Below, in pieces: positions 1,958-63,628 of a stretch of DNA of 64,000 nt. Position 1 is the stretch's first letter, and each line of letters begins with the position of its first letter. A program made the position numbers and the translations under genes. Location of the stretch: IMG/VR virus record IMGVR_UViG_3300042924_004713, positions 102,409 to 166,408 of that record. One strand, 5' to 3'. Below the pieces are notes generated by a model that was not told the origin of the DNA, did no database searches, and worked only from the letters and a program-made list of their open reading frames with translations. The DNA comes from a virus.

Positions 1958-3170
1958 CGTAGTTTATGATATATGCTAGATCAGGACAAGCGTCTGCAAG
2001 ATTCTGTTGTCGTACAGTGTCTAATCTGCTGATCTCGTAGGTCAAGGTACCGCCTTTACCTACACCCATCCAACCTTCTTTGGCTCGCATAAACGCAATG
2101 ATGTTCTTACGATCTTCTGCATAGGGATGATCTATACGTTCTCTTAACAGTTGACTGATAATTCGTTCTTTGATGGCTTCCACAACATTTTGCACACACC
2201 ATACTGGTGAATCGTGTAGATAATTCCAATAAACAAAGTCCCAAGGAAAGGATGCTGCCCACTGAGCTATGGTATTAAAGTATAGAACGTTCCAAATGCT
2301 AATGGTACAGCAGAGTTGCAACTGAATATTAGAGCTGGCTTCTCTTAGTTGTCTAAACTTTTCTAGGTTGTTCATTACCTCTGGCCACTTGGCACCTGTG
2401 CGCTGATATTCAAATCGTTGACCTATGTCATCAATGCTGAGTGCAATTTCTACTAATTTAAAATGGGGCCAGAGTTCTACGCCTTGTTCTGGATAGTGTG
2501 TGCCATTGGTGTTGTAGTGTATTTCAATATTGTGTGCCAAACCACGATCTACAAGAGTCTGCAAAAAGTCAAAGTGTTCTTGAATCATAAATGGCTCACC
2601 GCCCGTGAATTCAAGATACCGTATCTGTTCAGCAAATTCATCTAACTGCTGCCAGAACACAGTGCTTTCTTTGGGCCATCGACCTTCTCTCAACATTTTG
2701 TACGCATAGGTTTGCTTACGGTCCAAGGTCATTATTTGACCAACCTCTTCACTGGCAAATGTACTACTACTCCATGGCCCACATATTCTACACTTGAGAT
2801 TACAGATGTTGCCTAGTTTAAGATCTAAAAAAATTAGATCATTGGCATCTTCTGTCCATGTCATGTCTGTGATTAAGTGTTTTAATCGCTCCAGTGTGTG
2901 TTGTCGTTTGGAGGTTCCTCCACTGGCTTCAACTGACCAACAACGCTCACACGTGGCCGGAAGTTCACCTGCAATGAATGCACGTCGGAGTTCGCGCATG
3001 TGACTGCTATCTCGTATTTGATCGAAGGTCGCAGAGGTAAGTTGGTATTTGTCATTGTGTTCATCTACTATTTCATCCTTGGCCAAACAACATGGGCGTA
3101 CAGTACCAATTGGGCTGGTTTCCAAACTTACCCATGGCAGTATACAAAAAGTTTTATTGGGCAGTGTCAT
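1935..3170 (-). CDS. Radical SAM protein with N-terminal twitch/SPASM-like domain (rSAM2)
   Basis: A 411-residue relative of rSAM1. The N-terminal domain has C9 in CILPW, CC at 27-28 and CERC at 74-77. The radical SAM core has CNLKCRIC with cysteines 123, 127 and 130, then FTGGEPFM. It therefore has the auxiliary cysteine domain first and the SAM-cleaving barrel second. Its ATG overlaps the TGA of the upstream gene as ATGA, and its 3' end overlaps rSAM1 by 23 bases, so translation is probably coupled. Sequence outside the motifs differs considerably from rSAM1, suggesting different substrates and not a recent copy. No substrate peptide or sugar can be named. Confidence 0.9.
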   Translation of the reverse strand: MTLPNKTFCILPWVSLETSPIGTVRPCCLAKDEIVDEHNDKYQLTSATFDQIRDSSHMRELRRAFIAGELPATCERCWSVEASGGTSKRQHTLERLKHLITDMTWTEDANDLIFLDLKLGNICNLKCRICGPWSSSTFASEEVGQIMTLDRKQTYAYKMLREGRWPKESTVFWQQLDEFAEQIRYLEFTGGEPFMIQEHFDFLQTLVDRGLAHNIEIHYNTNGTHYPEQGVELWPHFKLVEIALSIDDIGQRFEYQRTGAKWPEVMNNLEKFRQLREASSNIQLQLCCTISIWNVLYFNTIAQWAASFPWDFVYWNYLHDSPVWCVQNVVEAIKERIISQLLRERIDHPYAEDRKNIIAFMRAKEGWMGVGKGGTLTYEISRLDTVRQQNLADACPDLAYIINYDGPVDYS

Positions 3171-4450
3171 AGATCTTGCAGTTCGGGTAACACGGATAAC
3201 ATGCTCTCTCCACGAATCTCGTCTAGTTGTTGAGACTTAGCCCAAAACTCAGGCAATTTTTCGCTGTTGTCTCTACTGTCCATAAAAGTTATAGCACTTT
3301 CAAATCCTTGACTTGCACGTTTAAAGGGATCCAAAGGCTGTAACCATTCGATGTGTTCACGAAACTTGGCACGCAGCTGATCTTTATATCGCGCACTGGC
3401 CACATCTATTCTATAGTGCGGAGGATCTTGCAGAATGTTTACGTTTAGGTCTTGAGCTCTGATCAACCCTCGACTTACCCAATCACGGTGAAAGTCTGGC
3501 AGATGCCAGGCATTCATTAAACTTAGAGTAGGACTTATGTAAAAGTCAACATTGGGGCATATCTCTAGCATGCGTTCACGATTGCGTTCAACTGTGTCCC
3601 AGTCTGTGCCTTTGCGAATGTATTCTGCTCGTTCGCCCATGGCATCAAGGCTAGCACCCACACTCACTGAATCAAAACGTCGCCAATAGTCAAAAACTGA
3701 TCTTGATTTGAGTTTGGTCTGCGTAAAGTTAGTGTTGTAGATCAGTCTTACATCAAACCTACCTCTGCGCTCCAACTCTTCAAGAATGTTATAATGCTCC
3801 TCCATCATGAGTGGCTCACCGCCAGCAAAGTAAATTTGTTCTACATAGTCAAGATGCGGTAACAATTGTTCCCACATGTCGGTTTCAGTACGTCCCGCAT
3901 AGTTCATAGCTGGAAATAGTTTGCCCCACTCAGGTCCTGCTAGCTTGACTTGATCAGCATACCAACTACTGGAAAATATAAAACCGCAGCTACGACATCT
4001 TAAATTACAGAGATTACTAAAACGTATATCCCAGTATGTCATTTCAAATCTGTCAAGCCGGCCAGTTGAATCTGTTTCATCAACACGATTGATATGATGA
4101 CCATGATGCTTGTTGGCTGCTTGTCGTCCGCTCATGAAACCGGTTTTTTCCTGTTCATAGCATCTTACACACCCTGCGCTTTCACGTTCTTCTAACATGT
4201 TCTGGCGCAGATTGCGCATTGGAGCTTGATTCCAAATTTCTTTTAATGTGTTCTTTTTACAGTGTCCTACTGATTGCCACATGGTGCTGTGACAGCACGG
4301 ATGCGCTTCACCAGTTGGATAGGTATGCAAATGTATCCATGGATAGATACAAAAAGTTTTACTCTCGGTTAGCAGGAACTTTTGACGATCTGTTAGAGAA
4401 TCAAAATTTATCTTGACAGGGCGAGGATCGTTGTAGTCAGATTTGGTCAT
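3167..4450 (-). CDS. Radical SAM protein with N-terminal twitch/SPASM-like domain (rSAM3)
   Basis: A 427-residue enzyme with a 30-residue N-terminal lead before the twitch-like domain: C34 in CIYPWIHLHT, CC at 52-53 and CVRC at 94-97. The core motif CNLRCRSC places cysteines at 148, 152 and 155, followed by FAGGEPLM. The segment between the domains is His- and Lys-rich (KHHGHH). It overlaps rSAM2 by four bases (ATGA) and overlaps the 3' end of rSAM4 by 14 bases. This is the copy in which the SPASM-type pattern (C, PW, CC, CxxC) is clearest. Iron-sulfur ligation is inferred from the motifs; the reaction is unknown. Confidence 0.9.
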   Translation of the reverse strand: MTKSDYNDPRPVKINFDSLTDRQKFLLTESKTFCIYPWIHLHTYPTGEAHPCCHSTMWQSVGHCKKNTLKEIWNQAPMRNLRQNMLEERESAGCVRCYEQEKTGFMSGRQAANKHHGHHINRVDETDSTGRLDRFEMTYWDIRFSNLCNLRCRSCGFIFSSSWYADQVKLAGPEWGKLFPAMNYAGRTETDMWEQLLPHLDYVEQIYFAGGEPLMMEEHYNILEELERRGRFDVRLIYNTNFTQTKLKSRSVFDYWRRFDSVSVGASLDAMGERAEYIRKGTDWDTVERNRERMLEICPNVDFYISPTLSLMNAWHLPDFHRDWVSRGLIRAQDLNVNILQDPPHYRIDVASARYKDQLRAKFREHIEWLQPLDPFKRASQGFESAITFMDSRDNSEKLPEFWAKSQQLDEIRGESMLSVLPELQDL

Positions 4451-5771: not shown

Positions 5772-6925
5772 CTTGTCAGTTTGTTGTCTCTTATAAACTG
5801 TATAAATCTTTCAGGAAACTCTTGTCGAACTTTTTCTCGCATGTTCCATAGGTGTTTTTGATTATACTCGCAAACAGGTCTTGCTGCTGCTAAAAAGTCT
5901 TTGAGATTCGCTGTACTCTTGCAAAGATCTACAACAATATCTCTTATTCGTGTGATTCGATCCATGTCATTGTCAATAGTGTCAAATGTTTCATCAATGA
6001 TATGATCAAATGTGCGAAAACCCAAGCTACGCATATCTCTGTAATAACCAACATTGGCGACCGCTATCCATGGGTGCCCAATGGCAATTGGTTTCCAAAT
6101 TTTTTCAGTTCTAAAACTATATGGATAGCTAAACACAGTTTCAGTTACCAGACTAAAGTAAGTATCAATATAAGGCTTAGGCTCTATATAAATCTCGCCC
6201 CACTCTAATTTGTTGTTAAAATCAAAAAGTTGATCTTTTACAAAACCAGGTACTAGATCAGATTTTAAATTTTTACGATACCTGTCAACTTCATATTGCT
6301 CTGGTAGCAATTGAACTGGTATTGTTTCTGCTACTAAATCTACTCCATTATGAATAAGTTTAAGGTCTTGTGTTCTCCCTGCGAATGTATCCAAGTTAGT
6401 CCACAAGCTTTGATCCAACAGCCCGGATAATTTAAAACTTTGCAACAAATATTTTCTATGAGGTCTACTCCGTCCATTCAAAAACAAAAATTTATAAGGT
6501 TTGTCTGTTGTATTGTAAATGTCATCGGTGTACTCGTACACATTTTTATTTTTTGGCACGTCAAAAATTTGAGGCAAAAAACTTTCATATTGCAAATGAT
6601 TAAATTGCGATTCTATATCGCCGCCACCTATTAACAGCATCCGACCTTGAACATTGTATTCTTTCAGCCCCAACTCAGTGACTTGCCATTTAAGTGTATC
6701 TGCGCCTTCAGTGGGATTACTGACTATGATAAAGGACTTACCGCTTTCAATTGTTTCTCTAACTTTGTCAATGTTATGATTTGTCTGTGCTCGCCCAAGT
6801 ACATAGATCGCATTTTCAATCAGTGTCTCTTTGCCAAAATCCCAGAATGTTCCATCAGTATACTCTTTGATCAAATCTGTAATCTCTGAGTAAATATCAA
6901 CAAATAGTTTTTTTCTACCAATCAT
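5768..6925 (-). CDS. Conserved hypothetical, possible GT10-like glycosyltransferase (copy 1)
   Basis: A 385-residue soluble protein with two landmarks: FLNGRSRPHR in the middle and SFRTEKIWKPIAIGHPW followed by GFRTF near the end. The second resembles the nucleotide-sugar binding C-terminus of GT10 fucosyltransferase-type enzymes (an SEK or TEK motif followed by a loop returning a GHP or AGxxP turn). That is a weak analogy, so the function is tentative. The gene at 6989-8122 is a clear paralogue. An AAGG about eight bases upstream of the ATG supports this start. The reading frame is also open upstream for 21 codons to the TAG of its paralogue, so amber readthrough would fuse the two proteins. 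Confidence 0.8.
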   Translation of the reverse strand: MIGRKKLFVDIYSEITDLIKEYTDGTFWDFGKETLIENAIYVLGRAQTNHNIDKVRETIESGKSFIIVSNPTEGADTLKWQVTELGLKEYNVQGRMLLIGGGDIESQFNHLQYESFLPQIFDVPKNKNVYEYTDDIYNTTDKPYKFLFLNGRSRPHRKYLLQSFKLSGLLDQSLWTNLDTFAGRTQDLKLIHNGVDLVAETIPVQLLPEQYEVDRYRKNLKSDLVPGFVKDQLFDFNNKLEWGEIYIEPKPYIDTYFSLVTETVFSYPYSFRTEKIWKPIAIGHPWIAVANVGYYRDMRSLGFRTFDHIIDETFDTIDNDMDRITRIRDIVVDLCKSTANLKDFLAAARPVCEYNQKHLWNMREKVRQEFPERFIQFIRDNKLTR

Positions 6926-61792: not shown

Positions 61793-62359
61793 TTATTCTT
61801 CGTCATCGTCTTGATAATCGTCTTCGTCTATCCATTTTTGACTTGGATCATCGTAGGCCTGATAGTAACGTTCATTGGCCTGCATGATTCTAAATCCATC
61901 TTTATATTTCAGCGCAGCAAAGGTTGCTTCTTCCTTTTTTAACAAATCGCAAACCACAAAGCTAGTGCCACAACCACCGCTGATGTTTTTGAATGGCGAG
62001 TGTTTGTATTCATTATGCTGTAATGCTTTGTGAAATGCTCCACCGTATGTAAAAATTATTCTTGTGATACCAAGCTTTTGATTTCGCAATCTAATTTTGT
62101 CAATCAAGGTCAAGACTGAGATTTCAGCTTCGTTGGCATCGTTGATGGCCAACAAACACTCTTTGAATTTGATACTGCCCTTGGTATGGTAATTGTCCGG
62201 AGTCTCTTTGGTACTCCATGGGATGGAAGCAGTGACGTGGTCTACGTAAAAAGTTTCACCGTGTGTTTTTACGACCCACATGGGGATGGTACTATCTTCT
62301 AGATGTTTCTTGTTGAAGTGAAACACTAGATCCTTGCATGCGTATTCAATCTATGACAT
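61793..62359 (-). CDS. Conserved phage protein with in-frame TAG at codon 3
   Basis: From the ATG at 62359 the frame reads Met-Ser-TAG-Ile-Glu-Tyr-Ala-Cys-Lys and continues to a TAA at 61793 (188 residues if TAG is decoded). AAGGA at 62371-62367 is seven bases before this ATG, which is one base after the lipoprotein stop. IEYACKDLVFHFNKKHLEDS and TIPMWVVKTHGETFYVDHVT resemble a conserved protein encoded near gp23 in marine T4-like phages. Without readthrough, translation must start at the GTG at 62326, giving 177 residues. The C-terminus is very acidic (DEDDYQDDDEE). Function unknown. Confidence 0.7.
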
Positions 62360-62360
62360 T

Positions 62361-62546
62361 TTATTTTCCTTTTGTTTTAAATTTACTGCACATTAGTTCA
62401 AAATCATGTTGCCTGCTTTGAACTTGTCCGTAACTTGCTTTAGGATTACGTTCTCTATACTCTGCTTTTTGTTGTTCTATGCACTCATCGTACTTGTTAG
62501 AACAACCTGCTGCTATCAAAGCAAAAACCATTAAAATGTAGCGCAT
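62361..62546 (-). CDS. Small lipoprotein
   Basis: A 61-residue protein. R2 is followed by a hydrophobic stretch (3-13) and the lipobox IAAG-C15, so it should be exported and lipidated at Cys15. The mature part is short, charged and has two more cysteines (C20, C53). TAGGA is before the ATG. It lies between a tRNA and the TAG-containing gene in an early-type operon. Small phage lipoproteins often block superinfection; that role is an inference here. Confidence 0.75.
   Translation of the reverse strand: MRYILMVFALIAAGCSNKYDECIEQQKAEYRERNPKASYGQVQSRQHDFELMCSKFKTKGK
62367..62371 (-). promoter_or_regulatory. Shine-Dalgarno AAGGA supporting the ATG before the TAG codon
   Basis: AAGGA lies within the last codons of the lipoprotein gene and seven bases before the ATG at 62359. 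It argues that translation begins before the in-frame TAG at 62353-62351. Confidence 0.65.
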
Positions 62547-62881: not shown

Positions 62882-63628
62882 ATGGGGCGTCCTCTCAAAA
62901 TACAAAAATATTCTACTAATTCTGGTATTGGTGCACCTGGTGCAGCAGTAGGCATTGATGTTGGTTTTCCAAACTTTGGCTCACTGACAGATCCAGAGTA
63001 TAATGTCAACCCAACAACTCTAAGTGCAAACGATTATCTTGGCGTGGTTGGCGGACTTCGTACCACTGCCACATCAGCTACTAATCCTGTGGTCAAGTGT
63101 ATTGTAAACATCGCCAACAGCTACACAGGTGTAGATGATGGTGTTATCCTGCGTCAAAAAGGTGCTCACAAATTTCTAGTGGCCACGAACACAGCTATTG
63201 ACCCTGCCAACGCAGTGGTGGGTGTCAGTGTGCGCATTGCTAGCCTTGGGGACACCAATTGGGTAGCTATGGGTGCACCAGTGGGTGCCGCAGTAGGCAC
63301 TATTTTCTTAGTTACAGCAGCCGCAGGCGCTGGTACCACAGGCACCTGTCAAGAAGTCGGTGTGTGCGTTTTAGACAATGATGCAACTCCTCCTGGCGGC
63401 AGCATGGCCATTGGCTTCTCAGTAGGAGATTCAACAATTACCTACATCAGCAAGCTAACCAACAAGTGGCTGTTGGATTGGACTGGAGGTAACGACTACG
63501 GTTACTCCAGCGTGGTAAATGATGTGCGTTATGTATCAAACTTCTTCACTGACGAAGGCACTGTGATCAAGAGTGGTACTGCAAATACCACAGTGATACC
63601 AGGGCAAGTTGAGAAGTGGACTAGCTAA
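62882..63628 (+). CDS. Virion structural protein
   Basis: A 248-residue protein starting MGRPLKIQKYSTNSG, a beginning shared by a family of virion proteins in T4-like marine phages (MGRPL followed by a basic, Tyr-containing stretch). It is rich in Gly, Thr, Ala and Val, with predicted beta strands such as FLVATNTAIDPANAVVGVSV. It has a late promoter, a folded leader with AAGGAG, and a strong terminator behind it, so it is a single-gene late unit. The exact place in the virion is unknown. Confidence 0.72.
   Translation: MGRPLKIQKYSTNSGIGAPGAAVGIDVGFPNFGSLTDPEYNVNPTTLSANDYLGVVGGLRTTATSATNPVVKCIVNIANSYTGVDDGVILRQKGAHKFLVATNTAIDPANAVVGVSVRIASLGDTNWVAMGAPVGAAVGTIFLVTAAAGAGTTGTCQEVGVCVLDNDATPPGGSMAIGFSVGDSTITYISKLTNKWLLDWTGGNDYGYSSVVNDVRYVSNFFTDEGTVIKSGTANTTVIPGQVEKWTS

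Follow-up and report, generated by a model that had tools for sequence, protein, structure and literature searches.

An in-frame amber codon as a likely suppressor-tRNA gate on phage HFNK and peptidyl-tRNA hydrolase genes

The gated gene and its surroundings

The window analyzed here is a stretch of 64,000 nucleotides that forms the final 64 kb of a virus record 166,408 bases long (IMGVR_UViG_3300042924_004713), from a phage with head, portal and protease genes of kinds known from tailed phages. On its minus strand lies a gene (61,793–62,359) that we named HFNK, after the invariant motif of its protein. The gene opens with ATG-TCA-TAG-ATT-GAA (62,359–62,345), which places an amber codon in frame as codon 3, and comprises 188 codons if this TAG is read through, with 185 open codons past the TAG until a TAA at 61,795–61,793. 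We refer to ATG-TCA-TAG (62,351–62,359, minus strand), followed by ATT in the favoured context TAGATT, as the amber gate. A Shine-Dalgarno sequence (AAGGA; 62,367–62,371, minus strand) sits 7 bases ahead of the ATG, a spacing similar to that in homologues. A small ORF of 61 codons (62,361–62,546, minus strand) stops one base before the gate ATG, and upstream of this ORF, on the same strand, ARAGORN locates a tRNA-CUA, an amber suppressor (62,739–62,666). The initial annotation had described the TAG as the third codon, the AAGGA 7 bases before the ATG, the ATG one base past the previous stop and an amber tRNA in the same operon, and each of these claims held. A GTG further into the frame (62,324–62,326, minus strand) is a rival start, which we reject as the ancestral one.

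The window tRNA-CUA has G1-C72, C2-G71, A73 and the loop TTCTAAA, which are typical of the related tRNA set, together with a canonical T-arm and a short D-loop. A Gln-type identity was considered and rejected, as G1-C72, C2-G71 and A73 in the acceptor are unlike Gln. Elsewhere the phage carries 28 tRNAs and a tmRNA. A small RF-1-domain protein, itself ungated, is encoded within the tRNA array at phage genome positions 70,003–70,281 (L233 10,003–10,281), and its GGQ motif is intact (GGGGQHRNKH). On the plus strand of the window, an Rfam freshwater-2 RNA (RF02980; 62,804–62,884, 77.8 bits against a gathering threshold of 49.9) lies directly upstream of a gene at 62,882–63,628.

Outside the HFNK gate, TAG serves this phage as an ordinary stop. 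A simple gene count shows it at the end of 23 of the 171 ORFs, so there is no phage-wide use of TAG as sense.

The HFNK protein itself has no match in Pfam, PHROG or NCBIfam. Two HFNK models are confident, with pLDDT of 89 and 94 (an AlphaFold model for the window gene), but neither has a significant match among solved PDB folds, and the best BFVD match is a relative that is shorter at the N-terminus. A PTH2-type peptidyl-tRNA hydrolase was rejected as its identity, given that there is no Pfam match and PTH2 is missing from the fold matches; no separate PTH2 was found in a search of the phage genome. T4 Cef, known as a ‘modifier of suppressor tRNAs’, was considered as a possible parallel, but the literature searched yielded nothing useful. 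Any function for HFNK is inferred.

Conservation of the amber codon in HFNK relatives

A search of viral contigs found 235 HFNK relatives, 80 of which were retrieved. TAG occupies the gate position in all 80 HFNK genes with readable N-termini (the window locus counted in), directly 5′ of a conserved I-E-Y/F-A-C stretch and 2–9 codons past an ATG with a Shine-Dalgarno sequence. Queries with diverged members widened the set to 92 distinct gated sequences, and the TAG is kept in 92/92, exactly one per gene and always at the start. Most of these gates are 2–4 codons long. Alignment of homologues, proposed in the initial annotation, shows that they run through the TAG and carry the ATG and Shine-Dalgarno sequence upstream of it. 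In cultured Rhizobium phage RHph_I1_18, the gene is 82 codons long and absent from the annotation, with the gate ATG-AGT-GAG-TTC-ATG-TAG and a tRNA-CUA directly behind.

Between the TAG and the conserved core, the difference rate is 0.145 at codon positions 1 and 2 and 0.44 at position 3, compared to 0.15 and 0.49 within the core. This third-position bias, matching that of the core, indicates that the stretch is translated, and bears out the earlier suggestion that the residues after the TAG are genuine protein. At the site of the rival start, the relatives have GTG (43), GTC (23), GTT (14), GTA (10) or ATC (2). Homologues beginning at the GTG at 62,326 would have refuted the gate, and this was not observed.

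The nucleotides around the TAG are also constrained. The base 3′ of the TAG is a purine in 92/92 (A in 89, G in 3), and the isoleucine codon after it is ATT in 75 of 83 cases, compared to 449 of 988 elsewhere in the same genes. This excess of ATT indicates selection on the nucleotides adjoining the stop. At their 3′ ends the gated HFNK genes use TAA (68) or TGA (24) and never TAG (0/92), compared to TAG in 46 of 681 neighbouring ORFs. These conservation, codon and terminator counts are not corrected for relatedness.

A scan without family bias covered 1.78 Mb of loci with the pattern of a Shine-Dalgarno sequence, ATG, 1–8 codons, a stop and 75 open codons. It returned 90 TAG cases in two families and 12 others (3 of these also PTH-like), along with 7 TAA and 12 TGA cases, one of the latter being the PTH2 gene of Agrobacterium phage Atu_ph07. 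Early in-frame TAG is far beyond chance. In the gene count of the window phage, only HFNK gives a convincing case of a stop lying between a start with its Shine-Dalgarno sequence and a long conserved frame.

Three loci deserve separate mention. In L193 an extra ORF (3,119–3,795), GIY-YIG-like by eye only, is inserted ahead of the gated gene, and its own start resembles a copy of the gate (ATG-GCA-TAG-ATT-GAA-TAT). In L209 (~5,850–5,990) an ungated HFNK lies behind ATG-AGC-TAC-TAG and a strong hairpin that resembles a terminator and leads into a run of T; this element could conceivably be an attenuator in which reading of the TAG would block termination. In a Paenibacillus genome (L162, 7,965–8,222) an ungated HFNK-domain gene lies in a tRNA array, between tRNA-Cys and tRNA-Met.

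Gated peptidyl-tRNA hydrolase genes

In one group of loci the HFNK relatives have no TAG, and the gate is borne by a PTH2-type peptidyl-tRNA hydrolase gene directly upstream (L203, L208, L211, L212, L214, L218–L220, L222–L227 and L229). The gates in this group read ATG-ACT-TAG-ATT, ATG-ACA-CAT-TAG-ATT, ATG-AAA-GAC-ACT-TAG-ATT or ATG-AAG-TAG, and in L212 the PTH2 stop is overlapped by the HFNK start. The order of gated PTH2 followed by HFNK also occurs in L190 and in Sinorhizobium phage Phosso, the latter with one gene between. In these PTH2-HFNK loci the gate is limited to the first gene, giving one gate per operon. Gated PTH2 genes are also found in Bacteroidota-type contigs and huge phages.

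The PTH2 profile of the gated genes matches solved PTH2 chains. Pfam PTH2 (PF01981) is matched above cutoff in L212, L084, L254 and L250, the genomes behind these matches being L212, Atu_ph07, Alice and LR756500. L287, L190, L285 and L252 fall below the cutoff, as does a second PTH-like group of greater divergence, and genes of family B (GAP32, ME3) also score below it. Annotation pipelines have missed or truncated gated genes in the databases. GenBank starts are placed downstream of the gate in GAP32 and Alice, part of the PTH2 core is lost with the annotated starts of GAP32, Phosso and Atu_ph07, the gated gene of Serratia phage BF is absent from its annotation, and PHROG 34073 spans only residues 36–112 of the GAP32 protein. 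In the 735-kb phage LR756501 (L251), the gated PTH2 contains another TAG in frame, and there are two adjacent tRNA-CUA genes; it is possible that this is a truly recoded phage that retains the gate.

Co-occurrence of the gate and its suppressor tRNA

Among cultured phages, including GAP32-like jumbo phages, PTH2-like genes stand behind TAG gates in GAP32, BF, Kaldavass, XbC2, ME3 and Arash, all with a tRNA-CUA, and Phosso also carries one. The mycobacteriophages Alice, Cane17, NoodleTree, ScoobyDoobyDoo, Myrna and Phabba share a conserved RTG-TAG-GTG-A with a tRNA-CUA nearby, and upstream of these gates is a TTGACA/-10 element in a position that fits a leaderless mRNA. PTH2-like genes occur in ~96% of the tRNA arrays of cluster C mycobacteriophages (PMC5966550); the stop codon is unmentioned in the relevant passages of that survey. 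Taken together, a tRNA-CUA is present in 14/14 complete cultured genomes with a TAG gate, compared to 1/6 PTH2 genomes without one, and with one genome per lineage the association is significant (p=0.005). Several of these tRNAs carry other or wrong isotypes in GenBank, which hides the amber suppressors: that of Arash is labelled Phe (L290, 3,810–3,884), that of Myrna Ser (L325, 1,972–2,043) and that of Phabba Arg (L328, 1,971–2,041).

The association has exceptions in both directions. For gated L163, L187 and L052, and for L190 with its gated PTH2, the tRNA-CUA lies elsewhere in the record. No tRNA-CUA could be confirmed in gated L010, L165, L185, L201 and fragments, even when searching the whole record. 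Possible reasons are incomplete records, divergence beyond the reach of the tRNA search, or a lack of dependence on the tRNA. Phage XacN1 has two tRNA-CUA genes, yet both of its PTH genes are ungated, and ungated PTH2 genes also lie beside a tRNA-CUA in L344–L346 and, in fused form, in L342/L343.

Atu_ph07 provides a switch of codon and anticodon together. Its PTH2 gate is ATG-ATT-GGC-GAA-CAC-TTT-TGA-ATT, and among its tRNAs no tRNA-CUA was found, but there is one 75-nt tRNA with anticodon UCA, which at this length is too short for a selenocysteine tRNA. The discoverers of the phage likewise reported an opal suppressor with anticodon UCA (PMC6102473). A TGA gate with a UCA tRNA is predicted by suppression and not by reinitiation, although this is one case only: the Atu_ph07 PTH2 query for further opal-gated relatives returned only its own genome. 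Alignment did not support a view of the UCA tRNA as the mutated sister of Phosso's tRNA-CUA. The dependence on the suppressor tRNA proposed in the initial annotation is supported by the 14/14 co-occurrence and by this switch, without protein-level proof.

Alternative explanations

The simplest alternative is that the gene starts downstream of the TAG, at the GTG or elsewhere, leaving the TAG in an irrelevant leader. The window phage does have the GTG, and the annotated PTH2 genes of GAP32 and Alice begin downstream of their gates. However, only 43/92 relatives have the GTG, the coding pattern reaches the TAG, the TAG is never lost, and the annotated starts in GAP32, Phosso and Atu_ph07 truncate the PTH2 core, making this reading very unlikely. 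We regard as similarly improbable the idea that ATG-X-TAG is a minigene, whether ribosomes terminate and at once reinitiate on the codon that follows (ATT, GTG), or peptidyl-tRNA drop-off at the minigene senses Pth activity. In its favour, the mostly 2–4-codon gates resemble drop-off-prone minigenes (reviewed in PMC8012679), GTG follows the mycobacteriophage gates, and peptidyl-tRNA hydrolase is itself among the gated products. A minigene gives no account of the preference for TAG over TAA or TGA, the linkage to tRNA-CUA, or the TGA paired with tRNA-UCA in Atu_ph07, and the next codons AAT, AAC, ACT and AAA are not starts.

Two further alternatives concern the meaning of the TAG codon itself. 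Under phage-wide genetic code 15, TAG would be an ordinary sense codon, as the presence of a tRNA-CUA and the second internal TAG in LR756501 might suggest. This is very unlikely, as TAG ends 23/171 ORFs in the phage and 46/681 across the loci, while each HFNK gene has one TAG, at its start. That the TAG encodes pyrrolysine can be all but ruled out. ARAGORN labels the window tRNA ‘Pyl’, but the label rests on the anticodon only, and 76 of 83 related tRNAs have A73, compared to the discriminator G of the tRNA-Pyl type. The window phage genome has no match to the PylS C-terminal domain, a search that does not cover the host. Relatives without the TAG start with Met at the gate site, which leaves no need for a special residue.

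Proposed mechanism and purpose

We therefore favour the reading that the TAG is likely a natural suppressor-tRNA gate on an operon, with the readthrough itself strongly inferred, from sequence alone. In this model, ribosomes would initiate at the ATG and reach the UAG 1–8 codons later, where RF1 would terminate translation unless the phage tRNA-CUA inserts an amino acid, whose identity is likewise a matter of inference. Expression of the gated gene, and of those downstream that are translationally coupled to it, would depend on prior transcription, maturation and charging of the tRNA, such that the gate would act as a natural coherent feed-forward (AND) switch. The products, a PTH2-type peptidyl-tRNA hydrolase and/or HFNK, would act in tRNA quality or ribosome rescue.

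The regulatory purpose remains inferred. Many gated loci also hold a phage tmRNA gene, and the frequent position of gated PTH2 and HFNK near it suggests a translation-rescue kit whose production tracks amber suppression. Unwanted readthrough is a consequence of suppressor tRNAs, and tmRNA helps cells to cope with it (Ueda 2002, cited in PMC8012679). Pth clears peptidyl-tRNA. The burden of readthrough, the clearance by Pth and the tmRNA at these loci together lead us to prefer the rescue-kit purpose, but as it is inferred from gene company only, it could as readily prove wrong as right. The main alternative, a timing or leak-proofing device built on the same gate, also remains possible.

A bolder version of the suppressor-tRNA gate holds that the suppressor tRNAs of standard-code phages exist to unlock one operon, as a widespread device, and that the stop senses release factor against charged suppressor tRNA, thereby turning on rescue by peptidyl-tRNA hydrolase and HFNK. 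We consider the evidence for this combined reading evenly balanced; if true, it would explain the purpose of many phage suppressor tRNAs. The gate occurs in many unrelated phages, on translation-related genes, and the cultured M. smegmatis mycobacteriophages make gating directly testable.

Comparison with known systems

The suppressor tRNAs of standard-code phages have so far been without a target, and the gate offers one in many phages. The XacN1 authors sought the target of their suppressor by extending translation past annotated amber stops, without success (PMC5852040); a search of this kind misses the gate because the stop lies at the gene start, upstream of the annotated start. For Atu_ph07, merely many potential targets of the opal suppressor were noted (PMC6102473). 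We found no report of this gate arrangement in the open-licence literature searched, with preprints outside the search.

The closest parallel is a synthetic suppressor-tRNA feed-forward loop, the ‘leak dampener’, in which expression is likewise conditional on a suppressor tRNA and in-frame stops (Ho et al., 2020, PMC7969014). The leak dampener reduces leaky expression, with TAG as well as with TGA, using one or a few stops (PMC7969014). It is engineered, with stops within a reporter and an inducible promoter, while the phage gate is natural and phage-encoded, with a single stop near the 5′ end of its target, a PTH2 or HFNK gene. Code 15 phages (crAss-like and others) likewise use a phage tRNA-CUA to read UAG during infection (PMC9523058). 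There, TAG is sense in many genes, whereas in gated phages it remains a stop and would be passed only in the first gene of one operon. An in-frame stop is also passed in the programmed stop-codon readthrough of RNA viruses. Such readthrough occurs at a set rate, usually yields a C-terminal extension and relies on a host near-cognate tRNA, unlike the phage gate, where the whole protein would be gated by a dedicated tRNA. Finally, autoregulation of prfB, encoding release factor 2, likewise places an early in-frame stop as a sensor in a translation-factor gene. While prfB uses UGA and +1 frameshifting, the phage gate would use a suppressor tRNA and no frameshift.
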